Shown here: piece after piece, positions 6,433-61,826 of the stretch
Numbering within the stretch: the first letter of the stretch is position 1
Layout of the letters: every line of letters begins with the position of its first letter
NCBI GenBank assembly: GCA_027491195.1
Contig: JAIXWQ010000012.1
Location: 310,001 to 374,000, forward strand
From: Cytophagaceae bacterium
GTDB taxonomy: Bacteria; Bacteroidota; Bacteroidia; Cytophagales; Spirosomataceae
Direction of reading: 5' to 3'
DNA: 64,000 bases
The notes under the pieces: model-generated
Databases searched by the model: none
Told to the model about the DNA's origin: nothing
Seen by the model: only the letters and a program-made list of their open reading frames with translations
Translations under genes and position numbers: made by a program

Positions 6433-6509
6433 AGTCGACAGTCGTCAGTCGCTAGTCGCTAGTCGCTAGTCGCTAGTCGCTAGTCGCTAGTCGCTAGTCG
6501 CTAGTCGAG
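6433..6509 (+). repeat. AGTCGCT heptamer array (left end)
   Basis: Eleven contiguous 7-base units: AGTCGAC, AGTCGTC, eight identical AGTCGCT copies (6447-6502), then AGTCGAG. The eight perfect copies suggest recent expansion or slippage. It starts 13 bases upstream of the engB start codon. Confidence 0.95.
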
Positions 6510-6592
6510 ATAAAAATAGATTACAAGTTAGTTGATAGGATATAAGTTCGCAAAACTGAAACTTTGGTATGTGTATTTCAAAATTGAAGAAT

Positions 6593-6970
6593 ATGAAAAT
6601 TAGAACTTTTGAGGATTTATTGGTTTGGCAAAAAGCCATTGCACACACGATTGAGATATATAAAAGGTTTCAGTTGGTTTCTGATTTTGGTTTTAAGAAT
6701 CAAATTCATCGTGCTTCAATATCTATTTCGAATAATATAGCGGAAGGATTTGAACGAGGTTCTGATCGTGATTTTAGGAGATTTTTATTTATATCACAGG
6801 GGTCCTGCAGTGAAGTAAAATCAATGATTTATATCGCATTGAAATTAAATTATATTTCTCAATGCGAGTTCGCCATAATATACGGCCAATTAAATGAAAT
6901 AGGTAAAATGCTTTTTGGCTTAATAAAAACCTTAAATAGTTCAGAAATTAGAAAATACAGGGCCGACTAG
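6593..6970 (+). CDS. four helix bundle protein (23S rRNA intervening-sequence / Avd-like family)
   Basis: Small all-helical protein of the 23S-IVP-like four-helix-bundle family. Family features seen are FEDLLVWQKA near the N-terminus, a central RASISISNNIAEG stretch, ERGSDRDFRRFL and the following QGS-E segment. The function of the family is not settled; relatives include the Avd accessory protein of diversity-generating retroelements. I chose the ATG at 6593 (MKIRTFED), giving 125 residues, because it matches the family N-terminus; an ATG at 6569 is in frame. The stop codon TAG is the end of the first unit (CGACTAG) of the right-hand heptamer array, so the repeat supplies the gene's terminus. 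Base composition is AT-rich, suggesting acquisition. Confidence 0.9.
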   Translation: MKIRTFEDLLVWQKAIAHTIEIYKRFQLVSDFGFKNQIHRASISISNNIAEGFERGSDRDFRRFLFISQGSCSEVKSMIYIALKLNYISQCEFAIIYGQLNEIGKMLFGLIKTLNSSEIRKYRAD

Positions 6971-7005
6971 TGACTAGCGACTAGTGACTTTCGACTAGTG
7001 ACTTT
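6964..7005 (-). repeat. inverted AGTCGCT-type heptamer array (right end)
   Basis: Six 7-base units on the plus strand: CGACTAG, TGACTAG, CGACTAG, TGACTTT, CGACTAG, TGACTTT. They are the reverse complement of the left array type. The array overlaps the stop of the four-helix-bundle gene and ends seven bases before the hemE promoter box. Confidence 0.9.
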
Positions 7006-7011
7006 TTTCCC

Positions 7012-7019
7012 TATCTTTG
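7012..7019 (+). promoter_or_regulatory. -7 promoter box for hemE
   Basis: TATCTTTG matches TAnnTTTG exactly and ends 16 bases before the hemE start codon. Any -33 element would fall inside the heptamer array, so the repeat forms the upstream half of this promoter. Confidence 0.55.
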
Positions 7020-7035
7020 CAGCTCGAATTAGCAT

Positions 7036-8064
7036 ATGGAAAAACTACAAAACGATCTTCTTCTTCGTGCCGCGCAGGGTCTGCCTGTGGAGCGAATTCC
7101 CGTTTGGGTGATGCGTCAGGCAGGGAGAATTTTACCTGAATATAGAGAAGTGAGAGCGAAGGCGGGGTCCTTTATTGGGCTGGCGACGCATCCAGAGATG
7201 GCGGCGGAGGTGACGATTCAGCCGGTAACGCGTTTTGGGGTGGATGCGGCGATTATCTTTTCAGATATTCTAGTGGTTCCGGAGGCGATGGGTTTGCCCT
7301 ATGTGATGGAGGAGCAGAAGGGGCCAGTTTTTCCGGAGGTGATTCGATCGAAGGCGGATTTAGCAAAAATTAGAGAGGCGAATCCGGAAGAGGATTTGAA
7401 ATATGTGTTGGATGCGATTAAGATTGTGAAGAAGGAGTTAGCTGGCAAGGTTCCATTAATTGGTTTTGCGGGTGCGCCGTTCACGATTTTCTGTTATATG
7501 GTCGAGGGGAAAGGGTCGAAGACTTTTTCGCAGGCCAAAAAAATGTTGTATGCCGAGCCTGAGTTAGCGCATGCTTTATTGCAAAAGATTACGGATTCTA
7601 CGATTTCGTATTTGAAGGCACAAGTAGCGGCCGGGGCTAATTTAGTCCAAATCTTTGATTCTTGGGCCGGGATTTTGTCGCCCGCGCAATATTCGGTGTT
7701 TTCGACGCCATATTTGAAGCAGATTTGCAATGCGGTGACGGAAGTTCCAGTGACGCTTTTTGCGAAAGGTGCTTTCTTCGCTCGTGAAGAGATGGCTGCT
7801 TTGAATTGTGCGACGATTGGTTTGGATTGGAATATGGATATCGCGGAATCGAGAAAACTAGTGGGTCCGAATAAGACCTTGCAAGGTAATCTTGATCCTT
7901 GTGCGTTGTATGGCGACTTCAAGACGGTGGAAGCGGAGACGAAAAAGATGATTGATCAGTTTGGGACGCAGCGTTACATTGCAAATTTAGGACACGGAGT
8001 TTATCCCGATATTGATCCGGATAAGGTGCAGTGTTTTGTAGACACGGTTCAGAATTACAAATAA
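7036..8064 (+). CDS. hemE: uroporphyrinogen decarboxylase
   Basis: HemE decarboxylates the four acetate side chains of uroporphyrinogen III to give coproporphyrinogen III in haem synthesis, in the cytoplasm. The signature [10 protein letters not shown] is at residues 22-31, and the conserved [13 protein letters not shown] segment with the active-site aspartate follows. The C-terminal [10 protein letters not shown] and [13 protein letters not shown] segments are as expected. The length of 342 residues is normal. It is monocistronic, with its own promoter box upstream and a hairpin terminator directly after the stop. No other haem genes are in the window. Confidence 0.96.
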
Positions 8065-8097
8065 AAAAAAGGCCTTGCGATTTGCGAGGCCTTTTTC
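8064..8097. terminator. hairpin terminator between hemE and guaB
   Basis: An A-run, an AGGCCTTGCG arm, a short loop, a GCGAGGCCT arm (with GU pairs) and a T-run. It overlaps the hemE stop and serves the convergent hemE and guaB transcripts. Confidence 0.8.
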
Positions 8098-8114
8098 ATT
8101 GATAAACTAAAAAC

Positions 8115-9584
8115 TTATTTTGCTGAATAGTTAGGCGCTTCTTTCGAGATGCTCACGTCGTGTGGGTGGCTTTCTTTCACACCCGCTGAAGTGATTTTCA
8201 CAAACTTCGCTTGTTGCATTGCTTCGATGGTTGAAGCTCCGCAGTAGCCCATACCGGCTTTTAAGCCACCGACCATTTGGTATAAAATCTCGGTTACGGA
8301 GCCTTTGAATGGTACGCGACCTACGATTCCCTCGGGTACCAATTTCTTAATATCGTCTTCTGCATCTTGGAAGTAGCGGTCTTTCGATCCATCTTCCATG
8401 GCTTCTAAGGAGCCCATTCCGCGGTATGATTTGAATTTACGTCCTTCTAAAATGATCATTTCACCTGGTGCTTCGTCGGTTCCAGCTAAAAGGGAACCCA
8501 TCATAACGGTGCTTGCGCCGCCTGCGATGGCTTTTGCCACATCACCTGAATAACGAATACCGCCGTCAGCGATGACAGGGACTTCGTATTTTTCCAAAGC
8601 TTTGGCAGCCTCATACACCGCCGTCAACTGTGGCATACCCACACCGGCGATAATACGCGTCGTGCAAATACTGCCCGGACCTACACCCACTTTCACAGCA
8701 TCCGCTCCCGCTTCCGCTAAAGCAATGGCCGCTTCACCTGTGGCGATGTTTCCTACGATAACATCTAAAGTAGGGAATGCTTTCTTCACCGATTTCAAGG
8801 CGTCGATTACTCCTTTCGAGTGACCGTGAGCCGTATCGATACTGATTACGTCAACGCCTACTTGCACTAATGCCTGCACGCGGTCTAATAAATCAGGTGT
8901 TACACCTACCGCAGCACCTACGCGAAGGCGTCCTAAGGAATCTTTCGATGCCAACGGGTGCGACTTACGCTTTAAAATATCTTTGTATGTAATCAAACCG
9001 ATCAATTTCCCGTTCTTGTCGATGATGGGTAATTTTTCGATTTTAAATTCTTGTAAAATGCTTTCGGCCTCTTCCATGCTGATTCCTTCTTTGGCCGTAA
9101 TCAAATTATCCTTCGTCATGATCTCCTTCACGGGACGAGCAGTTTGCTTTTGGAAACGTAAATCACGGTTCGTCAAAATCCCCACTAATTTCCCGTCATT
9201 GTCGATCACTGGAATGCCTCCGATCTTGAATTCCTTCATGATACGTTGTGCATCGCCTAAAGTGGAATTGTCTTTCAAGGTCACCGGATCGATGATCATC
9301 CCTGATTCAGAACGCTTTACCTTGCGAACTTGAGCGGCTTGCTGGGCAATCGTCATGTTCTTGTGGATGATTCCTATGCCACCTTCTTGCGCTAAAGCAA
9401 TGGCTAAATCAGCTTCCGTTACCGTGTCCATAGCTGCGGAAACGATCGGAATATTTAACGTAATGTTGCGTGTAAGGCGGGATGAAGTACTTACTTCACG
9501 GGGTAAAACCTCGGAATAAGCGGGAAGCAAAAGTACGTCGTCGTACGTTAAAGCTTCGAAAAGAAATTTGTTGGAATCAAGCAT
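8115..9584 (-). CDS. guaB: IMP dehydrogenase
   Basis: GuaB oxidises IMP to XMP with NAD, the committed step of GMP synthesis. The TIM barrel is split by a Bateman module of two CBS domains at about residues 95-205, which usually bind adenine or guanine nucleotides and regulate the enzyme. The catalytic loop GPGSICTTR carries the active-site cysteine C307. The flap segment with GSLEAM follows. Its 489 residues are standard. It is divergent from nuoA, with a clear promoter box 48 bases upstream. purA, for the AMP branch, lies elsewhere in the window. Confidence 0.97.
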
Positions 9585-9632
9585 AGCAAATAATTTGAAC
9601 CGGGTGTTGAATGAGTGCCCTTATTTGCAGGA

Positions 9633-9640
9633 CAAAATTA
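9633..9640 (-). promoter_or_regulatory. -7 promoter box for guaB
   Basis: Minus strand reads TAATTTTG, an exact TAnnTTTG match, 48 bases before the guaB start. The rest of the 152-base guaB/nuoA spacer holds no gene; I found no equally good box for nuoA. Confidence 0.5.
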
Positions 9641-9736
9641 CACGAAATTTCTGAAATAATTAAATCCTTTTCTGATTTTTTCTCCCAGATTTGGATTTTT
9701 AGCTGTAAATTGCGGCTTGAATTTTAAGCCTTCGTA

Positions 9737-10105
9737 ATGAACTATCAACCTCAGGATTTCCTTCCTATTTTTGTTCAGCTAGCAGCTGCTTTGGCATTTA
9801 TTGTCGCTACTATGGTAGCTACTCACTCATTAGGCCCTAAAAGACATTCGAAAAAGAAAGACGATGCTTTTGAATGTGGTATCGAGTCGATCGGTGATGC
9901 GCGTACACCTATCTCCGTTAAGTACTTTCTGGTAGCCATTCTTTTTGTGCTATTTGATATAGAAATCGTCTTCATGTATCCATGGGCAGTGAATTTCAAA
10001 CAATTATCATGGACAGGTTTCTATGAAATGTTAGTCTTCATGGGCTTGCTTTTAGTGGGCTTTCTATACGTATTGAAAAAAGGAATTTTAAAGTGGGAGA
10101 AATAA
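9737..10105 (+). CDS. nuoA: NADH-quinone oxidoreductase subunit A
   Basis: Membrane subunit A of proton-pumping complex I. Three hydrophobic segments are visible (about residues 12-32, 65-85 and 93-113), with the conserved FECGIESIGDA loop between the first and second. Its 122 residues match NuoA. It is the first gene of a ten-gene nuo cluster on the plus strand. A strong hairpin follows between it and nuoB. The ATG start is the only sensible one, since the first membrane segment follows immediately. Confidence 0.95.
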   Translation: MNYQPQDFLPIFVQLAAALAFIVATMVATHSLGPKRHSKKKDDAFECGIESIGDARTPISVKYFLVAILFVLFDIEIVFMYPWAVNFKQLSWTGFYEMLVFMGLLLVGFLYVLKKGILKWEK

Positions 10106-10130: not shown

Positions 10131-10150
10131 CAATCATCAGATAAAAAGAT

Positions 10151-10699: not shown

Positions 10700-10702
10700 G
10701 AT

Positions 10703-11200: not shown

Positions 11201-11209
11201 TAAAAAGAC

Positions 11210-12445: not shown

Positions 12446-12448
12446 GAC

Positions 12449-12934: not shown

Positions 12935-12942
12935 GGCCTAGG

Positions 12943-17510: not shown

Positions 17511-17584
17511 AAAGAATAAAGCATAAAGCACAAAGAATAAAGTTTGAATCCGCTTCGCGGATACGTTTATGAAATGTGTTTCAT
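17511..17584 (+). repeat. AAAGAAT/AAAGCAC heptamer array with hairpin
   Basis: Five 7-base units (AAAGAAT, AAAGCAT, AAAGCAC, AAAGAAT, AAAGTTT; 17511-17545) followed by GAATCCGC-type hairpin (arms ATCCGC and GCGGAT, 17548-17562) and a second small hairpin (arms ATGAAA and TTTCAT, 17569-17584). The array begins five bases after the nuoJ stop. Confidence 0.85.
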
Positions 17585-17590
17585 GAAATC

Positions 17591-17627
17591 ATTAAAAAAG
17601 GGAACCCGAAAGGTTCCCTTTTTTAAT
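17591..17627. terminator. perfect bidirectional terminator
   Basis: ATTA6GGGAACC on the left is matched perfectly by GGTTCCCT6AAT on the right around a CGAAA loop. It ends the nuo transcript and the convergent gene at 17673. It lies midway between two inverted heptamer arrays. Confidence 0.9.
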
Positions 17628-17632
17628 ACCAA

Positions 17633-17693
17633 CTTTGTTCTTTTTGCTTTGTTCTTTGTGCTTTGTTTTTGATTATCGCTTTTTGCGATAATC
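17633..17693 (-). repeat. inverted CTTTGTT/CTTTGTG heptamer array with hairpin
   Basis: Five units on the plus strand (CTTTGTT, CTTTTTG, CTTTGTT, CTTTGTG, CTTTGTT; 17633-17667) followed by a hairpin with 9-base arms GATTATCGC and GCGATAATC (17671-17693). The hairpin contains the stop codon of the gene that ends at 17673. Confidence 0.85.
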
Positions 17694-23685: not shown

Positions 23686-24877
23686 AATAAGCGAGGTGTT
23701 GTTGTGCCACCGTTTTTTGGTCGTATAATTGTATGGCGCGTGTTCGAGCTTTCTCTCCTGCTTTTTGATTTTCTAAGCACCACAGAATGCCTTTCGCTAA
23801 ATCTTCCGGATCAAAGGCTCTTGCCACATAGCCTGTTTGCTGATTCTCAACCATTTCGGGAATCCCGCCTACCTCGAAACCTACACAAGCAGTGCCACAA
23901 GCCATGGCTTCCATGATCGTATTCGGTAGATTTTCTTCCAAAGAAGGAGTCACAAACACGTCTGCTGCGGCATAGATGTCGCGCATTTTCGAAGGATCGG
24001 TTACCTGCCCAAAACTATGCGATTTCAACGGAAGTTCTTCCGTCATTTCTCCTCCCACGATAAGTAATTCTGTCGTCTTAGGGTCTAAATAAGCTAAGGC
24101 CTCTTTCAATAAATGGAAACCTTTCGCTGGGGCATTTACGCGCATGGCGACGAATAAGACGTAATTTTTGTTCGGATCCAATCCTAAATCCGTTGTATTT
24201 GGCGAGAAGAATGCTGTGTCGATGGCATTCGGGATAGTCTTAATCGAATACCCCCCTAAAATGCTGCTCTGCTTCGCTCGATTCCCTAACCAGTCACTAC
24301 ACGTGATAATATGAAGGTTTTTATCTTTAAATCCGTTTTTCTTCGCTTCCCATAGGCGATGTGAAAGGTCATTTGGATTCGGATTTTTTAAGAATTTGCA
24401 ATCCCCACAACTAAGCTGGAAATGTTCGCAAGTTCCACTATGGTGGCATCCACCCGTAAAGGCCCACATATCATGCAAGGTCCAAAAAATAGGTTTGTTC
24501 AATCGAGTCAAGGAGGCAATATCATCTACAGACAGAAAGCCAAAATTCACCCAATGCAAATGCAAGATATCAGCTTGCTGGATGAGGGGATGCTTCGAAA
24601 TGTCACTTCCGAAAATACCCGGATTAAATAGGAATCGGATCGATTTGTCTTTTTCAAATCGTAAGAAAAATAAGCGTTCCGCGATGAATTTCAGCCAAGA
24701 AACGAGTCCATTTCCGAACTTAATTGAGTTAGAAGTACTCGCTTTTTCTCTCACCAAATAATCCACTCGATGTCCTTCGCTTTCTAAAGCTACTTTCAAT
24801 CGTCCCGCTGCTATACCCGCCCCGCCATTGCTGTCGTGGTAGGAAAGTAGGACGATATGTAGCTTTTTATTGGACAT
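23672..24877 (-). CDS. family 4 glycosyltransferase with Cys-rich motif
   Basis: GT-B fold, GT4-type glycosyltransferase of 401 residues. The N-terminal domain has the glycine-rich SNGGAGIAAGRL and the HDMWAFTGGCHHSGTCEHF stretch with four cysteines, a hallmark of a group of polysaccharide GT4 enzymes. The C-terminal Rossmann domain carries the conserved E-x7-E region (SLEENLPNTIMEAMACG). It overlaps wecB by one base (TAATG) and the GT2 gene by 14, so the three are translationally coupled. Acceptor and donor are unknown. Confidence 0.88.
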   Translation of the reverse strand: MSNKKLHIVLLSYHDSNGGAGIAAGRLKVALESEGHRVDYLVREKASTSNSIKFGNGLVSWLKFIAERLFFLRFEKDKSIRFLFNPGIFGSDISKHPLIQQADILHLHWVNFGFLSVDDIASLTRLNKPIFWTLHDMWAFTGGCHHSGTCEHFQLSCGDCKFLKNPNPNDLSHRLWEAKKNGFKDKNLHIITCSDWLGNRAKQSSILGGYSIKTIPNAIDTAFFSPNTTDLGLDPNKNYVLFVAMRVNAPAKGFHLLKEALAYLDPKTTELLIVGGEMTEELPLKSHSFGQVTDPSKMRDIYAAADVFVTPSLEENLPNTIMEAMACGTACVGFEVGGIPEMVENQQTGYVARAFDPEDLAKGILWCLENQKAGEKARTRAIQLYDQKTVAQQHLAYYAQA

Positions 24878-25995
24878 TAAGCGAAGATTTCAGCCAGTTT
24901 AGCTGCGATACGTTCTGCTGCTTTTCCATCCCAAAGCGGTGGAATGCTTCCTTTCTTCACCTTGCCAGCCAAGATTTCTTTAAGCGCGGCATAGGTTTTC
25001 TTTGGGTCTAAATCAGATAATAATTGATTTGTTCCTAAAGTCACCGTAATTGGTCTTTCCGTTGAATCACGGAAGGTCAAGCAGGGAACTCCTAAATAGG
25101 TGGTTTCCTCTTGAATACCGCCTGAATCGGTTAAAATCGCAGTGGCATTTGACATCAATTGAATGAATTCTAAATAGCCCAAAGGCTCGGTCATAATCAA
25201 GTTTTTGGCCTGATCAAGACGATCCGCGAGCCCAAATTTCTCCATATGTGCCCGTGTTCTCGGGTGAATAGGGAAGATAATCTTCGTGTCTTGACTACTC
25301 AATTCGATTAATTCTAGGATAGATTGCAAACCTTTTTCGGTGTCCACGTTCGCAGGGCGGTGCATGGTCATGACGATGTAGTCACTAGTCGCTAGTCGGG
25401 AGTCGTTAGTCGATAGTCCTAAGTCTTCTAGTATCGTGGTGGTTTTTGCTTTCTCTTGGTAGCGAACTAAAGAGTCAATCATCACATTTCCTGCGAAGAA
25501 TACGCGTTCATCCGCCACACCCTCATTTTTCAAATGTTGCATTCCACTTTCCTCCGTCACAAATAGATAATCCGCCACGCTGTCCGTCAAAATACGGTTC
25601 AGTTCTTCTGGCATTGTACGGTCGAAGCTACGTAAACCCGCCTCTACGTGAGCCACTTTGATACCCATTTTAATCGCGACTAAAGTACAGGCCAAAGTCG
25701 AAGTAACATCCCCCACCACAATAATTAAGTCTGGTTTCTCGGCCTCTACAATTTTCTCAAAAGCCACCATGATTTTCGCCGTCACTTCTGTATGGCTTCC
25801 GCCCCCAATCCCAAGGAAAAAATCCGGTTCAGGTAATTCCAATTGAGTGAAAAAGACATCGCTCATTTTCGCATCAAAATGCTGTCCCGTGTGAACTATT
25901 TTCGATGTCCAACCGGCTAACTTTTGGATTGCACGATGTAGCGGAGCTACTTTCATGAAATTGGGACGTGCTCCCACGACTTGAATTACTTTCAT
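24877..25995 (-). CDS. wecB: UDP-N-acetylglucosamine 2-epimerase (non-hydrolysing), with heptamer insert
   Basis: Interconverts UDP-GlcNAc and UDP-ManNAc, providing ManNAc-type precursors for surface polysaccharide. Family motifs are GARPNFMKVAPLHRA near the N-terminus, VAHVEAGLRSFDRTMPEE in the middle, and TDSGGIQEE near the C-terminus. Its 372 residues are normal length. Residues about 190-206, between DLGL and YIVMTMHRP, are encoded by seven AGTCxxx heptamers (minus strand), so the linker before the second domain is built from repeat sequence while the frame stays open. The active-site motifs lie outside it. It heads the tightly overlapping part of the operon. Confidence 0.93.
   Translation of the reverse strand: MKVIQVVGARPNFMKVAPLHRAIQKLAGWTSKIVHTGQHFDAKMSDVFFTQLELPEPDFFLGIGGGSHTEVTAKIMVAFEKIVEAEKPDLIIVVGDVTSTLACTLVAIKMGIKVAHVEAGLRSFDRTMPEELNRILTDSVADYLFVTEESGMQHLKNEGVADERVFFAGNVMIDSLVRYQEKAKTTTILEDLGLSTNDSRLATSDYIVMTMHRPANVDTEKGLQSILELIELSSQDTKIIFPIHPRTRAHMEKFGLADRLDQAKNLIMTEPLGYLEFIQLMSNATAILTDSGGIQEETTYLGVPCLTFRDSTERPITVTLGTNQLLSDLDPKKTYAALKEILAGKVKKGSIPPLWDGKAAERIAAKLAEIFA
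25380..25428 (+). repeat. AGTCGCT-type heptamer array inside wecB
   Basis: Seven contiguous 7-base units on the plus strand: AGTCACT, AGTCGCT, AGTCGGG, AGTCGTT, AGTCGAT, AGTCCTA, AGTCTTC. They are translated in frame as part of WecB on the minus strand. The unit matches the arrays at 6433 and 61721. Confidence 0.9.
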
Positions 25996-26037
25996 TTGAA
26001 ATGATTTCTAAGCTTTAAAGTTACGAAGAAACTTAAT

Positions 26038-26080
26038 AAAGAATAGAGCATAAAGCACAAAGTAGGAAACCCCTTCGGGG
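26038..26080 (+). repeat. AAAGCAC heptamer array with hairpin
   Basis: Units AAAGAAT, AGAGCAT, AAAGCAC, AAAGTAG (26038-26065), then GAAA and a hairpin with arms CCCC and GGGG around TTC (26070-26080), followed by a TGAAACGT stretch. The arrangement parallels the copies at 17511 and 39123. It lies in the 111-base spacer upstream of wecB. Confidence 0.85.
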
Positions 26081-26104
26081 AAGAACTCGTGAAACGTAAA
26101 ATCT

Positions 26105-26153
26105 CTTTATTCTTTATTCTTTGTGCTTTGTGCTTTGGAGTCCAAAGGACTCC
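26105..26153 (-). repeat. inverted CTTTATT/CTTTGTG heptamer array with hairpin, overlapping a CDS end
   Basis: Plus-strand units CTTTATT, CTTTATT, CTTTGTG, CTTTGTG, CTTTGGA (26105-26139) run into a hairpin with perfect 7-base arms GGAGTCC and GGACTCC (26137-26153). It supplies the final residues and stop codon of the glycosyltransferase ending at 26107. Confidence 0.9.
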
Positions 26154-38642: not shown

Positions 38643-39131
38643 ATGGAAGGGGTTTCTTTAGCTGATTTGTACAAGTTCGACGAGATCTATTGGGTCCCGC
38701 AGGATAAGACTGAATCCCAGCTAGCAGAAACCCCGGCTATTGAAGTCGCTTCTGACACAATCGCGGAGGTTAAGTCTAAGATTTCTACTCCTTGGGTCGT
38801 TGTAGGCCAAATCGCCGATGCCGAACTCTCCCGCCTTAAACTTATTTTTTCTGCTCCTCCTTTAGTATTAGGACCCACCGATTGGTCTGTGTATACTCCA
38901 TCGGAGGAAGAACCAAGTCTTTCTGAATTCTTAAAAGACACTAGCGCTCAGCGTTATATCTTCATAGGTCAACAACCAGCCGCTTGGCAAGGCGAACTGC
39001 CTACGACGGAGATCGAAAAGGTTGAATCAAAAATTGTCTATTTCTTCCCTCGCTATATTTCGTCGTTAACGGATGCGGAGAAGACGCTGAAGATGGCGTT
39101 TTGGAATGCGTTAAAAGAAATGAAAGCATAG
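38643..39131 (+). CDS. unrecognised protein downstream of purA
   Basis: A 162-residue protein I cannot assign to a family. It has no signal peptide or long membrane segment, is acidic, and alternates short strands and helices (for example STPWVVVGQIADAELSR). It starts four bases after purA and is probably cotranscribed with it. Its end, EMKA followed by TAG, comes from the first unit (AAAGCAT, then AGAGCAC) of a heptamer array, so its native C-terminus may have been modified. The reading frame looks real because of spacing and codon bias like its neighbours. Confidence 0.7.
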   Translation: MEGVSLADLYKFDEIYWVPQDKTESQLAETPAIEVASDTIAEVKSKISTPWVVVGQIADAELSRLKLIFSAPPLVLGPTDWSVYTPSEEEPSLSEFLKDTSAQRYIFIGQQPAAWQGELPTTEIEKVESKIVYFFPRYISSLTDAEKTLKMAFWNALKEMKA

Positions 39132-39219
39132 AGCACAAAGTATAAAGCACAAAGTAGGAATCGCCGAAGGCGATGGAATTGTGAAATGTTTAAAGCACAA
39201 AGCATAAAGAATAAAGGTT
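39123..39219 (+). repeat. double AAAGCAC heptamer array around a hairpin
   Basis: Five units (AAAGCAT, AGAGCAC, AAAGTAT, AAAGCAC, AAAGTAG; 39123-39157), then a hairpin with arms ATCGCC and GGCGAT (39160-39174), a TGAAATGT stretch, and four more units (AAAGCAC, AAAGCAT, AAAGAAT, AAAGGTT; 39192-39219). The first unit contains the stop codon region of the gene ending at 39131. Confidence 0.9.
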
Positions 39220-39277: not shown

Positions 39278-39326
39278 ATCCCCGATAGGGGATTCCAACT
39301 TTATTCTTTGTGCTTTATGCTTTGTG
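39278..39326 (-). repeat. inverted heptamer array with hairpin, overlapping the tsaD end
   Basis: A hairpin with arms ATCCCC and GGGGAT (39278-39293), then plus-strand units CTTTATT, CTTTGTG, CTTTATG, CTTTGTG (39299-39326). Read on the minus strand the units encode the last residues and stop codon of TsaD. Confidence 0.9.
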
Positions 39327-49897: not shown

Positions 49898-49952
49898 ATC
49901 GCCGGTGGCGATACCATTTCTATGCTTTATTCTTTGTGCTTTATGCTTTAAA
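49898..49952 (-). repeat. inverted AAAGCAC heptamer array with hairpin
   Basis: Hairpin with arms ATCGCC and GGCGAT around GGT (49898-49912), then plus-strand units CTTTATT, CTTTGTG, CTTTATG, CTTTAAA (49925-49952). It matches the other copies in reverse orientation. Confidence 0.85.
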
Positions 49953-49987
49953 TCTCTACTCTCTACTCTATTATCTCTAATCTAAAG
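49953..49987 (+). repeat. TCTCTAC heptamer array
   Basis: Five 7-base units: TCTCTAC, TCTCTAC, TCTATTA, TCTCTAA, TCTAAAG. It joins the CTTTAAA array directly and contains the stop codon of the DinB-like gene ending at 49982. Confidence 0.8.
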
Positions 49988-53554: not shown

Positions 53555-54517
53555 TCAAATATAGGTGTTTTTTATTTCATGCGCGACGTATTCGGCGATT
53601 TTGCACGTATCTATTTCTTGGTATTTTTCTTCATTTAGTTCTGCCAAAAGCACCTCTAACACCCTTCGGTGATCAATCAATTTTGCCGGATGAGGTCGAT
53701 GACCTAGCGTTCGGTAAATGGAATCCCATTTTTTCGAAATGGAAAGCAGTTCTGTATCAAAATAGGACGCTTTAAATCGCTCCCAAATATAGGCTTGCGC
53801 CTGCTCGTTTGGGTGGATTAGATCAGCCTCATAAAAACGGTAATCCCGTAATTCATCCAGCATAATCTCGAAAGCTGGGAAATAGTGGACGTTTTCAAAG
53901 CGTTTCGAAACGATATCTGCCGCTAGACGTAGCGTGGATTTAGAAACTTGATTCTCCAACATGCCGTCTTTCGTGTGTCGAACAGGGGAGACGGTTAGTA
54001 CCACGTGGGTGGTAGATGGGAGAGTAGAGAGTAGAGCGCTGAAGTTTTCTACGATTTCATCTACGCTAGATAATCTCTTTTCGAAACGATCTGCCGGCAT
54101 CTTGTGGCAGTTAGCTACCGATTCATTTAGATATTTGTCAAAATAACTAAATGGCGTTCCCCAGGTAAGAAGCAGAAAGTCCGTATCAGCGATAAAGTTC
54201 GACACTTCGGCACCTACTGATCGCACATCATCCAGCAACTCGTCTGCCGTCGTCGCTGTAAAAACCGAATGATAATCTGGATGTAAAAAATACCCGTTTT
54301 GTTCGTAAACCTCTTCTGAAACGCTTCCCGAAAGAGCGCGCGTTATAGCAAAAGGGTGAAATAAAGTCCCGAAAGGCTGCGTCTTCACCTCTAATGGCAA
54401 TAAGCTTAAGCGCGCACCCATGGAGGCTGAAAAACAAGAACCCATCGTCAGCACCTTGCTCCGATGATTCATCAGAACAGGTGCTGCAGGAATGGGAAAT
54501 GTCGTCGTTAATTGCAT
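53555..54517 (-). CDS. GSCFA domain protein
   Basis: A 320-residue protein with the GSCFA domain, an SGNH-hydrolase-like family whose function is uncertain. The name-giving MGSCFSASMG segment is at about residues 23-32, and a conserved LTVSPVRHTKDG block lies in the middle. I use the ATG at 54517 (MQLTTTF), which overlaps the upstream stop as TAATG; an upstream in-frame ATG at 54538 would extend into that gene. An (AGAGTAG)2 heptamer at 54021-54036 is inside the coding region. It lies in the DUF885-to-DinB operon. Confidence 0.85.
   Translation of the reverse strand: MQLTTTFPIPAAPVLMNHRSKVLTMGSCFSASMGARLSLLPLEVKTQPFGTLFHPFAITRALSGSVSEEVYEQNGYFLHPDYHSVFTATTADELLDDVRSVGAEVSNFIADTDFLLLTWGTPFSYFDKYLNESVANCHKMPADRFEKRLSSVDEIVENFSALLSTLPSTTHVVLTVSPVRHTKDGMLENQVSKSTLRLAADIVSKRFENVHYFPAFEIMLDELRDYRFYEADLIHPNEQAQAYIWERFKASYFDTELLSISKKWDSIYRTLGHRPHPAKLIDHRRVLEVLLAELNEEKYQEIDTCKIAEYVAHEIKNTYI
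54021..54036 (+). repeat. short AGAGTAG heptamer in the GSCFA gene
   Basis: Two identical 7-base units plus two bases (AGAGTAG twice, then AG). The reverse complement is a rotation of the TCTCTAC unit at 49953. It is short and may be chance. Confidence 0.4.
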
Positions 54518-56365: not shown

Positions 56366-59008
56366 ATGTCAGGATTGGGAGCTGAGCGCGCACGATTACA
56401 ATTAAGGAACGATAATAAAGGTTGGAAAAAATGGGGGCCCTATTTGACGGAACGTCAGTGGGGAACTGTGAGAGAGGATTATTCCGCACATGGTAACGCT
56501 TGGGGTACGATTACACACGATATGGCTCGTTCGAAGGCTTATCGCTGGGGCGAAGAGGGGATCGCGGGTATTTCAGATAATAAACAACACGTTTGTTTTG
56601 CTTTTGCTTTTTGGAATCACCGGGATCATATCTTGAAAGAACGGTTTTTTGGTTTAACAGGTGCAGAATCGAATCACGGCGAGGATGTAAAGGAATTGTA
56701 TTATTACCAAGATTCGACGCCGACGCATTCGTATCAAAAGATGCTTTATAAGTATCCGCAGCAAACATTTCCCTATCAAAAACTGATCGATGAGTCGAAA
56801 AAGCGGAATCGCCAGGAGCCGGAATATGAGCTATTAGATACCGGCATTTTTGACAATAATGAATACTTCGACATTTCGATTGAATACGCGAAAGCGGATG
56901 AACAAGATATTTTAATTAAAGTGACCGTGGAGAATCGCTCGAAAGTGGCAGCTCCTATCACGGTTTTGCCTACGATTTGGTATAGAAATACTTGGTGCTG
57001 GGGTTACGAAAAGTATAATTATAAGCCGCTTTTGACGGGTGTAGGCAATTCCTTCATTGAGGTGGACCACCGCGTGGTGGGTCGCTTTAAGTTATATGCG
57101 GAAGATGCGGATGAGTTCCTTTTCTGCGACAATGAGACCAATTTTCAGCGCTTACACAACTCTGATAACTTGTCGCATTTCACGAAGGACGGCATTAATG
57201 AGTACATCGTTAATAAAAACAAGCACGCGGTTAATCCGAACCACATTGGGACGAAGGCTTCTGTAAAATATACCGATAAAATCCCAGCGGGAGAGAAGAA
57301 GGTATACCGTCTGCGTTTGAGTAATGTGACTCAGCGTGAACCATTTGCTGATTTTGACCAAATTTTCGAAGACCGCATCATCGACGCTGATCAATTCTAC
57401 GCGGAATTGCAGAAGGGTATAGAAGATGATAATTTACGATCCCTACAACGTCAGGCTTATGCCGGGATGCTGTGGACGAAGCAATGGTATTATTATAATG
57501 TATTCGAATGGATTAAGGGTGATCCGTCTATGCCGAAGCCGGATGCGAGCCGTAAAAATGGCCGAAATAGCACGTGGAGGCATATGTATGCAGCGAATAT
57601 CTTGTCGATGCCGGATAAGTGGGAATACCCGTGGTTTGCGGCTTGGGACTTAGCGTTTCATACCCTTCCTTTGGCTCGTTTAGATCCTGATTTTGCCAAA
57701 AGACAGCTTGCCGTTATCCTCCGCGAATATTACATGCACCCGAACGGCCAAATTCCGGCCTATGAGTGGTCTTTCTCCGACGTAAATCCACCAGTGCACG
57801 CTTGGGCAACTTGGAAAGTCTACGAGATTGATAAAGAAATGAATGGCGGGAAAGGGGACGTGATCTTCTTGGAACGTATTTTTCATAAGCTATTATTGAA
57901 CTTCACCTGGTGGGTGAATCTGAAAGACGAGGGAGGAAACAATATTTTTGGTGGTGGATTCTTAGGGATGGATAATATCGGGGTATTCGATCGCTCCGCG
58001 GAATTACCCACCGGAGGTCACTTAGAGCAAGCCGATGGAACAGGTTGGATGGCTATGTATAGCTTAAATATGCTGCGTATTGCCTGCGAAATCGCCATTG
58101 AAAATCCCGTTTACCAGGACATGGCTTCGAAGTTTTTCGAGCACTTCTTGCACATCGCCGGTGCGATGCAATCCATCGGTGGAGATAAATTGAATCTGTG
58201 GGACGAGGACGACCAATTCTATTATGACATGTTGCATAAAGAAGATGGGTCAGCCGAATTATTGAAGGTGCGTTCGATGGTCGGTTTGATTCCATTATTT
58301 GCGGTAGAGACCTTGACCTCTGAGATGCTCGAAAAATTACCTGCTTTCAAGCGTCGAGTAGAATGGGTATTAGCTAACCGTCCAGACTTAGCCAATTTGA
58401 TTTCACGTTGGTACGAACCTGGAAAAGGGGAGTCGCGATTGCTTTCCATCTTGCGTGGCCATCGAATGAAGATGATCATGAAGCGGATGTTCGATGAGAC
58501 GGAATTCTTATCTGACTTCGGTATTCGTTCCTTGTCAAAATACCACAAAGAAAATCCGTATAAATTCGCTTACGAAGGCGGTACGCTGCAGGTAGATTAT
58601 ACGCCGGCGGAGTCTACGGGCGATATGTTTGGGGGGAATTCGAACTGGCGTGGACCTATCTGGTTCCCGATGAACTATTTGATTTTGGACTCCTTATCGA
58701 AGTTCTCTGATTATTATGGATCAGATTATGAGGTGGAATTTCCGACGAATTCAGGCGAAATGATGAACATTAAAGAGGCAGCACGCGGTGTTTCTGAGCG
58801 TTTATTAGCGATGTTCGTACCCGGAAAAGATGGAAAGATTCCAATGTATGGGGACTACAAAAAGTTCCAAGACCCCCATTTTAAAGATTCACACCTCTTC
58901 TTCGAATACTTCGATGGAGACACCGGAAAAGGTTTAGGCGCAAACCACCAAACAGGCTGGACAGGCTTAATCTCTGAAATAATCAGACAACTACATGGCA
59001 AAAACTAG
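56366..59008 (+). CDS. GH63-like glucosidase (MGH1-type)
   Basis: Large glycoside hydrolase of about 880 residues with an (alpha/alpha)6 catalytic domain similar to GH63/YgjK-type glucosidases (segments FAAWDLAFHTLPLARLDPDF and NPPVHAWATWKVYE). It likely removes alpha-linked glucose from oligosaccharides. I use the ATG at 56366 (MSGLGAERARLQL); the ATG at 56285 would add 27 residues that do not look like a signal peptide. No signal peptide is seen, so it is predicted cytoplasmic. A ridA-like gene overlaps its end by 14 bases. Confidence 0.85.
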   Translation: MSGLGAERARLQLRNDNKGWKKWGPYLTERQWGTVREDYSAHGNAWGTITHDMARSKAYRWGEEGIAGISDNKQHVCFAFAFWNHRDHILKERFFGLTGAESNHGEDVKELYYYQDSTPTHSYQKMLYKYPQQTFPYQKLIDESKKRNRQEPEYELLDTGIFDNNEYFDISIEYAKADEQDILIKVTVENRSKVAAPITVLPTIWYRNTWCWGYEKYNYKPLLTGVGNSFIEVDHRVVGRFKLYAEDADEFLFCDNETNFQRLHNSDNLSHFTKDGINEYIVNKNKHAVNPNHIGTKASVKYTDKIPAGEKKVYRLRLSNVTQREPFADFDQIFEDRIIDADQFYAELQKGIEDDNLRSLQRQAYAGMLWTKQWYYYNVFEWIKGDPSMPKPDASRKNGRNSTWRHMYAANILSMPDKWEYPWFAAWDLAFHTLPLARLDPDFAKRQLAVILREYYMHPNGQIPAYEWSFSDVNPPVHAWATWKVYEIDKEMNGGKGDVIFLERIFHKLLLNFTWWVNLKDEGGNNIFGGGFLGMDNIGVFDRSAELPTGGHLEQADGTGWMAMYSLNMLRIACEIAIENPVYQDMASKFFEHFLHIAGAMQSIGGDKLNLWDEDDQFYYDMLHKEDGSAELLKVRSMVGLIPLFAVETLTSEMLEKLPAFKRRVEWVLANRPDLANLISRWYEPGKGESRLLSILRGHRMKMIMKRMFDETEFLSDFGIRSLSKYHKENPYKFAYEGGTLQVDYTPAESTGDMFGGNSNWRGPIWFPMNYLILDSLSKFSDYYGSDYEVEFPTNSGEMMNIKEAARGVSERLLAMFVPGKDGKIPMYGDYKKFQDPHFKDSHLFFEYFDGDTGKGLGANHQTGWTGLISEIIRQLHGKN

Positions 59009-59468
59009 TCCAGAAGAGAATTTTGCGGCCTTAGGCCTAACACTTCCACCAGCTCCTAAGCCTTTGGGTGTTTACAAACCGGGTTTGCAGGTAGATCATT
59101 TCTATTACGTATCTGGTCACGGAACGGTTCAGGCGGATGGGTCGTTGATTATCGGCCGCATTGGGGTAGATCTAGATATAGAGGAAGGGAAATTAGCGGC
59201 GCGTCAGGTGGGTTTAGCGATTTTGGCCACCTTAAAAGCGCAATTAGGGTCCTTGAATCGCATTAAACGCGTTATCAAAGTTTTAGGCATGGTGAATGCG
59301 ACGGAAGATTTCTTGCGTCATCCTTATGTCATCAACGGATGCAGTGAATTGTTCGCCCAGGTTTGGGGAGAAGAAAATGGTATCGGTGTTCGTTCCGCAG
59401 TGGGAATGGGTTCTTTGCCAGACAATATTCCGGTTGAAATCGAGGCTGTTTTCGAGCTAAACGATTAA
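58995..59468 (+). CDS. RidA family protein
   Basis: A 157-residue RidA/YjgF-type protein. Family features are the NLVYVSGHG-like start (seen as YYVSGHGTVQADGS) and the RVIKVLGMVNATEDF stretch, ending in VEIEAVFEL. Classic RidA deaminates reactive 2-aminoacrylate, but this longer form (about 153-157 residues) is a separate subgroup whose substrate is uncertain. It starts 14 bases before the GH63-type stop and is translationally coupled to it. Its stop overlaps the convergent nadA stop by four bases. Confidence 0.88.
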   Translation: MAKTSPEENFAALGLTLPPAPKPLGVYKPGLQVDHFYYVSGHGTVQADGSLIIGRIGVDLDIEEGKLAARQVGLAILATLKAQLGSLNRIKRVIKVLGMVNATEDFLRHPYVINGCSELFAQVWGEENGIGVRSAVGMGSLPDNIPVEIEAVFELND

Positions 59469-60451
59469 GCAGAGACTTCTAACATCGCTTTCAAGGCCTT
59501 GTAGGCAGGAATGCGTGTTTCCTCAGCTAAATTGATCTCCGGCAATTCGTAATACAAAGCGTTATACAATTTCTCCAGTGTATTCATCTTCATGTACGGG
59601 CACTCGCTGCACGCACAGGTATTTTGCTCATTCGCAGGAGCAGGAATCAAATGCTTGTGCGGAACCGATTGCTTCATCTTGTGCAAGATGCCAGCCTCCG
59701 TCGCCACGATGAAAGTTGAGTTAGGTGATGTTTCCACGAATTTCAAAAGTGCCGTCGTAGATCCTACATAATCCGCTTCTTTCAAAATAACCTCCTTGCA
59801 TTCAGGATGGGCAATCAAAAGGGCATCCGGATATTCTTGCTTCAAAACCGCTAATTTCTCTAAAGAAATATCGATATGTACCATACATGCGCCTTCCCAA
59901 AGAATCAGCTCACGTCCCGTCTTGTGCGCCACATAGCGACCTAAATTCGCATCCGGAGCGAAGATAATTTCGCGATCTGCTGGGATTGATTCCACGATTT
60001 GTACCGCATTCGACGAGGTACAAATAATGTCCGTCATTGCCTTGATATCAGCTGAACAGTTGATATAGGAAACCACTACTGCATTGGGGTGCTTCGCTTT
60101 TAATGCAGCGAATTCAGCTACTGGAACTGAATCAGCCAAAGAGCAACCCGCATTGAAATCGGGTACCACTACTTTCTTTGTCGGATTCAAGATTTTAGCC
60201 GTTTCTCCCATGAAGTGAACGCCACAAAAGACGATTAAATCTGCCTCCGTTTTTTCTGCCGCTTGCGATAAACCCAAACTATCTCCCACATAATCAGCTA
60301 GTTCTTGGATCTCGCCATCCACGTAGTAATGCGCTAAAATTACCGCGTTTTTCTCCTTCTTTAAGCGTTGGATTTCGGTAATTAATTCCACGCCTTTCGG
60401 GGTAGAACGGGCAATGTAGCCCACAGAGGTTGCTTCGTCTATTAAATTCAT
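59465..60451 (-). CDS. nadA: quinolinate synthase
   Basis: NadA condenses iminoaspartate with dihydroxyacetone phosphate to quinolinate, with a [4Fe-4S] cluster. Candidate cluster cysteines are in the FCGVHFMGETAK segment, and the C-terminal NTCACSECPYMKMNTLEK group. Its 328 residues are standard. It overlaps nadC by four bases (ATGA), so nadC-nadA form one transcript; nadB is at 45951. Together they make NAD de novo from aspartate. Confidence 0.96.
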   Translation of the reverse strand: MNLIDEATSVGYIARSTPKGVELITEIQRLKKEKNAVILAHYYVDGEIQELADYVGDSLGLSQAAEKTEADLIVFCGVHFMGETAKILNPTKKVVVPDFNAGCSLADSVPVAEFAALKAKHPNAVVVSYINCSADIKAMTDIICTSSNAVQIVESIPADREIIFAPDANLGRYVAHKTGRELILWEGACMVHIDISLEKLAVLKQEYPDALLIAHPECKEVILKEADYVGSTTALLKFVETSPNSTFIVATEAGILHKMKQSVPHKHLIPAPANEQNTCACSECPYMKMNTLEKLYNALYYELPEINLAEETRIPAYKALKAMLEVSA

Positions 60452-61302
60452 TTCGCTTTTAGGCTTAAATCTAAACTCTTCACTTGGTGGGTTAATGCCC
60501 CCACGGATATATAATCAACCCCGGTTTCGCCATAGGCACGGAGTGTTTTTTCAGTTATTCCACCAGACGCTTCGGTGGCAAATCGTCCGTCAATTTTTCG
60601 AATCGCATCGCGTAGTCGATCGGGCGTAAAGTTGTCTAGCATAATGCGTTTCACGCCACCAATGGCTAAAACCTGTTCAAGTTCTGTCTCGTTTCTGACC
60701 TCGATCATTACATCCAAAGGTTTCGCTAAGGCCTTATTATAGGCAAAAGATTGATCTAAAGCCTGCTTAATTCCTCCTGCAAAATCCACATGATTATCCT
60801 TGATTAAGATCATGTCAAACAAACCGTAGCGATGATTCACCGCGCCGCCTATTTTACAAGCCCATTTTTCCGCTAAACGGAAATTAGGCGTGGTTTTTCT
60901 CGTATCTAATAGTTTCGCTCGAGTCCCTTCTAGGATGTTGACCAAAGACCGGGTATAGGTTGCAATCCCCGACATACGTTGCATGCAATTCAACACTAAA
61001 CGCTCTGCTTTCAGGATGGATTGCGAAGATCCACTCACCTCTAAAACGACTTGGCCTGGTTCGATCCAAGTCCCATCTGGAATGAAAACCTGTACTTGAA
61101 GGGATGAATCAACTTCCTTGAAAATAGCTAGAGCTAATTCCACGCCCGCCAGCACGCCTCTATCCTTTACCTTAAGTTCTGCCGTACCCGTAGCATCAGC
61201 TGGTACAGTAGAAAGGGAGGTATGATCTCCATCACCCACATCTTCCCGAAGGGCGGATTGGATGAAAGCTTTCACATAAGAGGGTTCTGTGTAGTCGAAC
61301 AT
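60448..61302 (-). CDS. nadC: nicotinate-nucleotide pyrophosphorylase (quinolinate phosphoribosyltransferase)
   Basis: NadC converts quinolinate and PRPP into nicotinate mononucleotide with loss of CO2. The DTRKTTPNFRLAEKWA motif, which carries arginine and lysine of the active site, and the GGAVNHRYGLFDMILIKDNH segment are present. The length of 284 residues is normal. It is the first gene of the nadC-nadA unit, with a promoter box 18 bases upstream, and divergent from a small membrane-protein gene. Confidence 0.96.
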   Translation of the reverse strand: MFDYTEPSYVKAFIQSALREDVGDGDHTSLSTVPADATGTAELKVKDRGVLAGVELALAIFKEVDSSLQVQVFIPDGTWIEPGQVVLEVSGSSQSILKAERLVLNCMQRMSGIATYTRSLVNILEGTRAKLLDTRKTTPNFRLAEKWACKIGGAVNHRYGLFDMILIKDNHVDFAGGIKQALDQSFAYNKALAKPLDVMIEVRNETELEQVLAIGGVKRIMLDNFTPDRLRDAIRKIDGRFATEASGGITEKTLRAYGETGVDYISVGALTHQVKSLDLSLKAK

Positions 61303-61320
61303 AGGGGTGTTTTATCGCCC

Positions 61321-61328
61321 CAAAATTA
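61321..61328 (-). promoter_or_regulatory. -7 promoter box for nadC-nadA
   Basis: Minus strand reads TAATTTTG, an exact TAnnTTTG match, 18 bases before the nadC start codon. Confidence 0.5.
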
Positions 61329-61346
61329 CGAAAATTACCCGGAGAA

Positions 61347-61376
61347 TTGATTTCTAAGAAAAATATCCTATTTTTG
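61347..61376 (+). promoter_or_regulatory. promoter before the small membrane-protein gene (-33 and -7)
   Basis: TTG at 61347-61349, a 19-base spacer, then TATTTTTG at 61369-61376. Both boxes match the Bacteroidota consensus. The box lies downstream of the in-frame ATG at 61347 and so supports the start at 61386. Confidence 0.65.
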
Positions 61377-61385
61377 CTACTCTCA

Positions 61386-61715
61386 ATGCAAAAGAAGGTC
61401 AAAATATCCCATCTTATTCTGTTTATCCCCGTGCTTTTTTGGCTCGTGGCTAAACCCATCTCGCTGTTCGCAGTAGAAAAAGGGGCAGTGAAGACGGAAA
61501 AGACTTCGAAGCAAACGATTGTAAAGGCTGAGCAGCACGTTTATCAAGTTGCTACGAACTTACAACTCGATTTTCCACAAGATTGGAACTTCTCAAGCCC
61601 TACGGAATTCTTCGTAGCGCGCTCGATGCAAGCCATTAAATTGCCTACATTCACTCATCGTACGCAATTCTTACGAATTTTATTTACCCAATTTATCGCC
61701 ACTCTGGCGCCGTGA
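61386..61715 (+). CDS. small membrane-anchored or secreted protein
   Basis: A 109-residue protein I do not recognise. It starts MQKKVKISH and has one hydrophobic segment (about residues 10-28) that may be an anchor or uncleaved signal, then a charged region and a C-terminal part with aromatics. The ATG at 61386 is chosen because a two-box promoter ends nine bases before it; an upstream in-frame ATG at 61347 overlaps that promoter. An AGTCGCT array begins six bases after its stop codon. secDF follows on the same strand. Confidence 0.65.
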   Translation: MQKKVKISHLILFIPVLFWLVAKPISLFAVEKGAVKTEKTSKQTIVKAEQHVYQVATNLQLDFPQDWNFSSPTEFFVARSMQAIKLPTFTHRTQFLRILFTQFIATLAP

Positions 61716-61720
61716 GGGGT

Positions 61721-61769
61721 AGTCGCTAGTCACTAGTCGGGAGTCGCTAGTCGCTAGTCACTAGTCTGT
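61721..61769 (+). repeat. AGTCGCT-type heptamer array
   Basis: Seven units: AGTCGCT, AGTCACT, AGTCGGG, AGTCGCT, AGTCGCT, AGTCACT, AGTCTGT. Same unit type as at 6433 and 25380. It starts six bases after the stop of the gene at 61386-61715. Confidence 0.92.
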
Positions 61770-61773
61770 AGGG

Positions 61774-61815
61774 ACCACCCACCATTTACCATTCACCATT
61801 TATCATTTACCATTT
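61774..61815 (+). repeat. ACCATTT heptamer array
   Basis: Six units: ACCACCC, ACCATTT, ACCATTC, ACCATTT, ATCATTT, ACCATTT. It follows the AGTCGCT array after four bases and ends 11 bases before the secDF start, so it forms most of the secDF leader. No promoter box was found between the two arrays and secDF. Confidence 0.88.
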
Positions 61816-61826
61816 AATTTAAAGTT

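Follow-up and report, generated by a model that had tools for sequence, protein, structure and literature searches.

Inverted heptamer arrays around PF05635 (S23p) genes as the probable ends of a family of small bacterial elements

In the genome of a bacterium of the Cytophagaceae (GenBank assembly GCA_027491195.1), a stretch of 64,000 nucleotides (contig JAIXWQ010000012.1, positions 310,001 to 374,000 of the forward strand; referred to as the window, with coordinates counted from its first base) carries dispersed short tandem arrays whose units differ in sequence and yet share a period of seven bases, which raises the question of what process would fix the length of a repeat while leaving its sequence free. 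The original prediction, made from the letters of this DNA, distinguished four unit types and proposed a common process rather than common descent. The present analysis agrees with that proposal and identifies the common factor as the protein family PF05635 ("23S rRNA IVP", S23p; IVP below), members of which lie between inverted arrays of their own unit type. The process behind the arrays is most likely a family of IVP-centred elements, and a probability of about 0.7 appears appropriate for the whole account, in which the arrays serve as recognition sequences, both at the ends of small elements with an IVP gene only and scattered elsewhere, including the way in which such elements would work.

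The arrays were located with Tandem Repeats Finder (TRF) and a self-shift score, and they are present where they had been predicted apart from small corrections: an array placed at 39278 lies at 39299-39326, and a TCTCTAC case at 54021, originally offered with a "perhaps", consists of merely 2.4 units of GAGAGTA inside a GSCFA gene (54020..54036, plus strand, TRF), a weak array of doubtful membership. At a self-shift score of at least 12 the window holds ten arrays of period 7, one of period 6 and none of periods 5, 8 and 9, and shuffled copies of the window (n=10) gave 0.0 arrays per copy. A sample of the same genome chosen beforehand (20 stretches of 20 kb each, in total 400 kb out of 2.49 Mb) contains, at a score of at least 13, 19 arrays of period 7, one each of periods 6 and 3 and none of periods 5, 8 and 9, along with 14 arrays of period 14, which presumably re-read period-7 arrays, and two of period 15. 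The suggested excess of period 7 over 5, 6, 8 and 9 is therefore real, both in the window (10 against 0-1) and in the sample (19 against 0-1), and a chance origin of the arrays is ruled out by the shuffles, the control periods and the control positions given below.

With a laxer score of 11 the sample holds 24 arrays, and mapping relative to genes places the midpoint of 21 of them outside open reading frames (ORFs) of at least 150 amino acids, which make up 87% of the bases. Typed by the best match of their commonest unit (6 of 7 or better), they comprise 15 AAAG, six TCTCTAC, two ACCATTT and one other array (CAGTGGT); the AGTCGCT type is absent from the sample, yet many such arrays are listed elsewhere in the genome. 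For 12 of the 24, a partner of the same family lies on the opposite strand at a distance of at most 450 bp, same-strand partners are lacking throughout, and the six adjacent opposite-strand pairs in the sample all follow one and the same order. Neither the inverted pairing of many arrays nor the PF05635 gene enclosed by one such pair was part of the original prediction, and the supposed four unit types grow to about a dozen in the genus, as read by eye from tree labels.

The enclosed gene occupies 6593..6970 on the plus strand, between engB, which encodes a GTPase, and hemE, and its product matches PF05635 in a profile search with 114.5 bits (E 3.2e-33), the curated cut-off being 33.8. Its frame is open from 6569, and the start at 6593 is also present in the relatives G001 and G037 (genomes of the genus carry such numbers, G000 being the own genome). 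A left terminal (AGTCGCT)n array lies at 6432..6508 on the plus strand and its inverted copy, the right terminal array, at 6964..7005 on the minus strand (TRF and self-shift score for both), with the stop codon of the IVP gene falling within the first unit of the right array. The inverted match extends beyond the arrays into the region between the starts of engB and hemE through an unstranded outer half-palindrome, CAAAGGTAAGGAAAA (6417..6431), whose partner lies at 7005-7019. Three of the four PF05635 matches above the cut-off in the own genome lie between inverted period-7 arrays, with three different units, namely AGTCGCT, AAATGGT (the same as ACCATTT; IVP at C6:70883-71182) and AAAGCAT, so that this genome contains a corresponding IVP for three of the four types first described; in the arrays flanking the fourth IVP, copies of a TTAGTC(G) core take turns with small hairpins. 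A TCTCTAC-flanked IVP is found in the relatives G023 and G009, at the site that holds the AAAG-type IVP in the own genome. Two AGTCGCT arrays of the own genome, at C6:540582-540637 (contig end 540707) and C8:71-119, lie no more than about 70 bases from contig ends, and assembly breaks may hence hide further IVP elements.

Across the genus, 60 PF05635 matches occur in 28 of 38 genomes. In the 53 loci with at least 300 bp on both sides (four with in-frame stops were kept, and seven of the 60 were dropped for short flanks), the inverted-repeat score of the flanks exceeded the 99th percentile of the control in every case, with a median of 31 versus 9.5 at 301 control positions, the median direct score being 9.5. 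Arrays of period 7 stand on both sides of the gene at 32 of the 53 loci and arrays of other periods from 4 to 12 at none, compared with 2 of 782 control positions with period-7 arrays on both sides and 46 with one on either side. An association between PF05635 genes and flanking inverted arrays is thus very likely.

The same arrangement is found far outside the genus. Nineteen of 27 plasmid records with an IVP relative were analysed, comprising 17 from Cyanobacteriota, one from Riemerella and one from Azospirillum (H4, H5, H7, H10, H14, H24, H25 and H27 were left out, some of them from organisms already included), and 17 of these 19 loci, mostly cyanobacterial, have inverted flanks above control; at a low threshold, period-7 arrays lie on both sides of 15 and period-8 arrays on both sides of two (L145, L149). 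The original pointer to the short tandemly repeated repetitive sequences (STRRs) of cyanobacteria was well aimed, in that the tandem heptamers flanking IVP genes on cyanobacterial plasmids are, as we take it, of the STRR kind. Among named genomes of many phyla, the best 80 of at least 576 loci were considered (two were dropped for short flanks), and 62 of the remaining 78 exceed the control in the inverted-repeat test; both-sided arrays have period 7 at 33 loci, period 8 at nine and any other period from 4 to 13 at none, the corresponding figures at 723 control positions being three, none and none. The loci with period 8 on both sides (L168, L173, L184, L186, L189, L191, L209, L217 and L222, in addition to the plasmid loci L145 and L149) include several Rhizobiales with Brucella relatives among them, a Desulfosarcina, a Bacteroidaceae and others. 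The distribution of periods 7 and 8 tracks the IVP tree, on which 11 changes are needed versus 17.4 after shuffling, with none of 300 shuffles as low (10 of 97 loci, being unlabelled, were excluded).

Some plasmid IVPs with flanking repeats sit inside CRISPR-Cas operons (L134; L135, 3001-3370; L145, 3001-3357): in Pseudanabaena and Anabaena their neighbours on the two sides are cas6 and cas4, in Picosynechococcus cas10 and cmr3. Others lie between ribonucleotide-reductase subunit genes. IVPs in such operons may be mistaken for Cas accessory genes; the IVP domain is listed in a figure legend on CRISPR systems in the part of that paper at hand (PMC10910872).

A tree of 56 IVPs of the genus (four of 60 loci with in-frame stops left out), grouped by eye and with many forks unresolved owing to few alignment columns, shows protein groups that agree with the unit type: AGTCGCT, AGTAGTC/AGTGGTC, AGTCCG, the TTAGTC-hairpin group, GGACGTT, AATAGGT, AAATGGT, AGAGAGT, AAAGCAT, CAAAGTT, GAATGTA and others. 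Protein identity correlates with unit similarity in a Mantel-type test (r 0.429 for 125 loci, the largest of 2000 permutations reaching 0.084; 30 of 155 loci were excluded for too few period-7 units or a stop), and r is 0.425 for the 74 loci outside the genus. Proteins at least 75% identical but located at different sites have unit similarities of 6.16 of 7 (31 pairs) and 6.46 (4 pairs), as opposed to 4.25-5.0 of 7 for proteins at the same site with less than 60% identity. Unit sequence consequently follows the protein more than the place, although place has some effect. The engB-hemE region illustrates this, as 15 of its 30 loci carry an IVP. Three IVP groups are represented (by 5, 4 and 6 loci), each accompanied by the array type typical of it and present in either orientation; 13 of the other 15 loci hold array-like repeats as judged by eye and two (L073, L082) do not. 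In a further IVP group (L040, L041, L045, L048 and L049) a mixed spacing of 7 and 15 nt is observed (AGTCCGAAG GGAAAG), which represents neither plain heptamers nor clear hairpins.

Two unit types are also scattered through the genomes in agreement with the resident protein. Counted as matches to three units, so that long arrays count several times, the pattern AGTCGMT has 19, 35, 22, 9, 16 and 39 matches in the six genomes with that IVP group, of which 13, 19, 11, 0, 8 and 17 lie outside the IVP locus, and 0-2 in the other 32 genomes; GAATGWA has 46, 182, 63 and 221 in the four genomes with the matching group and 0-3 in the other 34. The counts for these two unit types support an IVP acting in trans. 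TAGGTAA has 17, 53, 55 and 25 matches in four genomes with the matching IVP, and the pattern AGTAGWC is too loose for a clean test. It could be argued that unrelated slippage generates the arrays and that IVP elements home into pre-existing arrays of matching type, an explanation that would accommodate the TAGGTAA and TCTCTAC arrays without a resident IVP and an array in an epimerase gene whose length varies in unit multiples. Yet AGTCGMT and GAATGWA are nearly absent where the matching IVP is missing, and slippage explains neither the restriction to period 7 or 8 nor the inverted pairing, for which reasons such homing into slippage-made repeats is considered quite unlikely. A mobile element whose IVP acts in trans is, by comparison, the probable source of the scattered units.

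The protein itself is kept by selection, as indicated by a low ratio of nonsynonymous to synonymous substitution rates (median 0.098 for 23 pairs, maximum 0.535; 2 of 25 pairs with saturated synonymous rates were excluded from the median). An AlphaFold2 model of the IVP (pLDDT 89.9, pTM 0.83) is a four-helix bundle whose best structural matches are 2gsc and 2rld, each of them deposited with five chains, and the Xanthomonas S23p protein is termed a homopentamer in the available portion of the literature (PMC4990558). Structures of Avd, a protein of diversity-generating retroelements, come next (4dwl, 8ub7; Foldseek probability 0.99-1.00, TM-score to the target 0.69-0.86, E 0.04-0.43).

Arrays are present at the same sites in close relatives, rather than absent or placed at random, and the contents of these sites turn over. 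The alignment of the window with its four syntenic relatives is interrupted at array loci and nowhere else, while not every array causes a break. At 61720, where the window has its AGTC-type array, G001 has AGTCGAT/AGTCGGG, and the array is replaced by AGTAGTC/AGTGGGC in G012 and by AGTGGGC in G017, the last two genomes having IVPs of the group of these replacing units. At 39123 the array of the window gives way to CAAAGTTC in G001 and to hairpin arrays in G012, G017 and G037; these units agree with the IVPs of G001, G012 and G017, and no such IVP was found in G037, an assembly that is 80% complete. The site of the own AAAG-type IVP, compared in the eight genomes (own included) in which both flanks matched, holds an AAAG-type IVP in three, a TCTCTAC-type IVP in two, an array-only ACCATTT pair in two and a 36-nt remnant in one; L255-L276, from distant genomes of the genus, were not counted as their right-hand neighbour did not match. 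An orthologous site can contain a full element, an array-only pair, another family or no element at all.

This turnover is relevant to another explanation, according to which the IVP is a sequence-specific DNA or RNA regulator and the arrays are the operators or mRNA control sites of its regulon, with nothing mobile involved. The position of most arrays outside long ORFs (21 of 24), the purifying selection on the IVP and the resemblance of its fold to the RNA-linked Avd are all compatible with regulation, and published heptamers have been called regulatory in Geobacter (PMC2700814) and in Beggiatoaceae (PMC4679880), as far as the consulted portions of these papers go. However, arrays also lie between convergent genes and within coding sequence, sister species hold a full element, an array-only pair or another family at the same site, and repeat-flanked IVPs lie between the members of gene pairs such as cas6/cas4, cas10/cmr3 and those for ribonucleotide reductase. 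A regulon is therefore judged unlikely, even if it is the least improbable of the alternatives to IVP-centred mobile elements.

Signs of a single-stranded state come in part from the loci that depart from plain heptamers. In the TTAGTC-hairpin group (L124, L093, L094, L098 and L100) perfect mini-hairpins stand between cores in place of plain heptamers: of the 49 stretches that separate one GACTAA core from the next, 37 form exact hairpins, versus 0.4 by shuffling, with lengths of 9, 11 or 13 nt, ten different stems and the loop GAA or GTA in 30 of the 37. GNA triloops are very stable in single-stranded DNA. The cores are 15-19 bp apart in duplex DNA, and in a folded single strand neighbouring hairpins would be separated by the core of 6 nt alone (7 nt if one base is opened), a distance near the spacing of plain heptamers, which suggests that the IVP requires single strands. 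A hairpin likewise lies near an array in 14 of 17 array-only AAAG elements, compared with 1.1 by shuffling.

From these features we infer an element composed of an inverted array, an IVP gene and a second inverted array, about 0.6-0.8 kb in length and with PF05635 as its only gene; array-only inverted pairs around a hairpin-rich interior would be non-autonomous copies, and single arrays remnants. The IVP would form a ring of five four-helix bundles that binds arrays while these are single-stranded and folded, taking up one unit per protomer, such that the geometry of the ring sets the period at 7 (8 in some clades) and the bases read vary from clade to clade. A protein of fixed geometry with an evolving base preference is the simplest account of a fixed period with a free sequence, and the TRAP protein, which reads spaced triplets, offers an analogy for a ring with one unit per protomer; nevertheless this five-fold ring model is advanced tentatively, at somewhat below even chances. 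Host replication and repair would then copy the bound arrays to new places and lengthen or replace them in trans, possibly with a preference for sites that already contain an inverted repeat, be it a terminator, a divergent promoter or an older element, as a few sites hint.

Host replication and repair enter this proposal as what remains once the Y1 transposase (PF01797) and RVT_1 reverse transcriptase (PF00078) families are set aside. A model in which such an enzyme moves the arrays in the manner of repetitive extragenic palindromic (REP) sequences and REP-associated tyrosine transposases (RAYTs), with the IVP as passenger or cofactor, draws on the fact that Avd, the fold relative of the IVP, works with a reverse transcriptase, and on REP elements being dispersed hairpins served by a single-copy gene. 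PF01797 matches are nevertheless confined to 12 of the 38 genomes and are missing from G000, G001 and G012, and PF00078 matches occur in five of 38, including G000 and G012, and in none of the array-rich G001, G005, G013 and G022. Since neither family is common to the carriers, this model is disfavoured and regarded as very unlikely. In the own genome a reverse transcriptase domain is encoded at G000:C4:3957-4445, within a frame of 1476 amino acids on a contig other than that of the window IVP. A copying process driven by the IVP and host enzymes would make these elements a transposase-free mobile class, in which a five-fold ring protein reads tandem single-stranded words of 7 or 8 bases, one to each subunit, and with host replication copies both its gene and gene-less arrays; this is a possibility that we hold with less than even confidence.

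A number of observations weigh against the account of IVP-centred mobile elements. Eight genomes without a PF05635 match (G006, G007, G008, G011, G018, G026, G032 and G035) have 4-83 matches to TAGGTAA, so that this unit occurs in 12 genomes and its IVP in four; arrays may outlive their gene, or the gene may be lost in assembly gaps, and yet G007 and G026, both 98% complete, have the arrays and no PF05635 match. The noisy AGTAGWC pattern gives 44 matches in G003 and 28 in G021, both without the matching IVP, and 0 in G016 and 4 in G017, both with an IVP of that group. The TCTCTAC arrays, 6 of the 24 sampled, have no IVP of their group in the own genome, and at three sites of the window (B, D and F) arrays of the AAAG or TCTCTAC type are present in several relatives in which no IVP of the group was found. 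In the genus, pairs at 60-75% identity have more similar units at the same site (5.52, 41 pairs) than at different sites (4.59, 18 pairs), host sequence contributes to the inverted match at engB-hemE, the five loci of the hairpin group share their neighbouring genes and are thus not independent, and counts and trees carry the relatedness of the species. Two of the 19 plasmid loci (L143, L148) and 16 of the 78 named-genome loci do not exceed the control for inverted repeats, L134 and L195 score higher for direct than for inverted repeats, and direct scores lie above the control at three of the 78. With regard to classical insertion sequences and MITEs (miniature inverted-repeat transposable elements), the ends here are tandem arrays, and no target-site duplication was established at the sites compared; no IVP match was obtained in a phage collection with one protein query; and we know of no catalytic domain in PF05635.

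Besides the IVP element the window contains array-only and single arrays. A MITE-like element between convergent genes consists of an AAAG-type left arm (17511..17542, plus strand), an unstranded interior (17543..17632) and an inverted right arm of CTTTGTT/CTTTGTG units (17633..17671, minus strand, TRF). Its interior carries a 6-bp hairpin, ATCCGC-TTC-GCGGAT, 5 nt from an array, together with a TGAAAT block and a terminator-like hairpin, both recognised by eye. In G001 the interior of this element (17511-17686) appears, by eye, inverted relative to the window, and it looks as would be expected from recombination between inverted arrays. Two further AAAG-type pairs were detected with TRF, one with a left arm at 26036..26062 (plus) and an inverted right arm at 26104..26137 (minus) around a 42-nt interior with a hairpin, and an array-only element with arms at 39191..39216 (plus) and 39299..39326 (minus), near a separate AAAG-type array at 39123..39156 (plus, TRF). 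Arrays of different types adjoin one another, as had been predicted: an AAAG-type array at 49921..49950 stands directly beside a TCTCTAC-type array at 49951..49983 (both on the minus strand, TRF), and an AGTC-type array at 61720..61766 (plus) is followed by an ACCATTT-type array at 61774..61816 (minus), both by self-shift score. One AGTC-type array (25379..25425, plus strand), placed by ORF and domain match, lies inside an Epimerase_2 gene on the minus strand (24877-25995); length differences of 21 nt (3 units) and of 84 nt (12 units) exist there among relatives, with the frame kept, and G012 is without the array. With regard to phase-variable repeats, the arrays are mostly outside genes, and the one coding array compared keeps its frame in steps of 21 nt.

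Several known systems share features with these elements. The REP and REPIN sequences served by RAYTs are likewise dispersed, non-autonomous inverted repeats with hairpins that depend on a low-copy gene. They differ in that PF01797 has no match in the own genome, the protein fold is unrelated and the repeats here are tandem 7- or 8-mers. Avd has a fold similar to that of the predicted IVP model, and a resemblance of PF05635 to Avd is noted in the accessible part of PMC10053308; nonetheless, a reverse transcriptase adjoins the Avd-like gene of a diversity-generating retroelement, whereas the window IVP adjoins engB and hemE. The closest parallel is the intervening sequence (IVS) in the 23S rRNA of Coxiella, which, in the consulted sections of PMC4990558, has the same protein family and inverted ends, is called selfish, and has ahead of its S23p ORF a short run of tandem heptamers (GACAGAT; two or three copies and a further degenerate one) that is variable among strains and for which those sections offer no explanation. 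Inverted terminal sequences enclose the S23p ORF at 53 of 53 loci in the genus. The IVS, according to the same sections, is different in that it occupies a helix of the rRNA, from which RNase III excises it (PMC4990558), while the elements described here are located within protein genes or in the spaces between them, are bounded on either side by inverted heptamer arrays and also exist as array-only copies. The window IVP, between engB and hemE, is not in a 23S rRNA gene; an Rfam search of ten wider Rhizobiales-type loci for such a location returned tRNA matches only.

Heptamers have also been described on their own. In the parts of the papers at hand, the STRRs of heterocystous cyanobacteria are tandem heptamers of several units and mostly intergenic, as are the arrays analysed here, and are presented as repeats without a gene partner (PMC4692102, PMC2670836), whereas the present arrays are tied to one gene, in a host whose gene content suggests Bacteroidota. 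An excess of heptamers is noted in PMC4692102, along with GGGAATC heptamers in Xanthomonas that form, like the present ones, inverted pairs (70 and 75 in two genomes), and unlike them were generally seen by the authors, in the text available, as unassociated with mobile elements. Xanthomonas campestris is also the source of the solved S23p structure 2gsc. TAACTGA arrays of Beggiatoaceae are described in a text that, in its available part, has neither "S23" nor "four-helix bundle" (PMC4679880), and tandem heptamers of Geobacter appear as putative regulator sites in the part seen of PMC2700814. Heptamers have thus been noted in cyanobacteria, Xanthomonas, Beggiatoaceae, Geobacter and others with no gene partner named in these portions of the literature, and no paper reporting a general link between heptamer arrays and PF05635 was found in the open-licence full-text literature, as far as its searched text extends. 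PF05635, in turn, is a widespread family whose Pfam name refers only to rRNA intervening sequences. The link gives the arrays and the family each a partner and proposes where a class of repeats hitherto without an origin could have come from, and by the same link arrays become a read-out of the sequence preference of the IVP, so that the preference of many natural variants should be predictable from their flanking DNA. Mobility, if confirmed, would represent movement without a known transposase, and a transposase-free class, if true, would account both for the heptamer excess in many bacteria, STRRs included, and for the presence of S23p ORFs in the intervening sequences of 23S rRNA.

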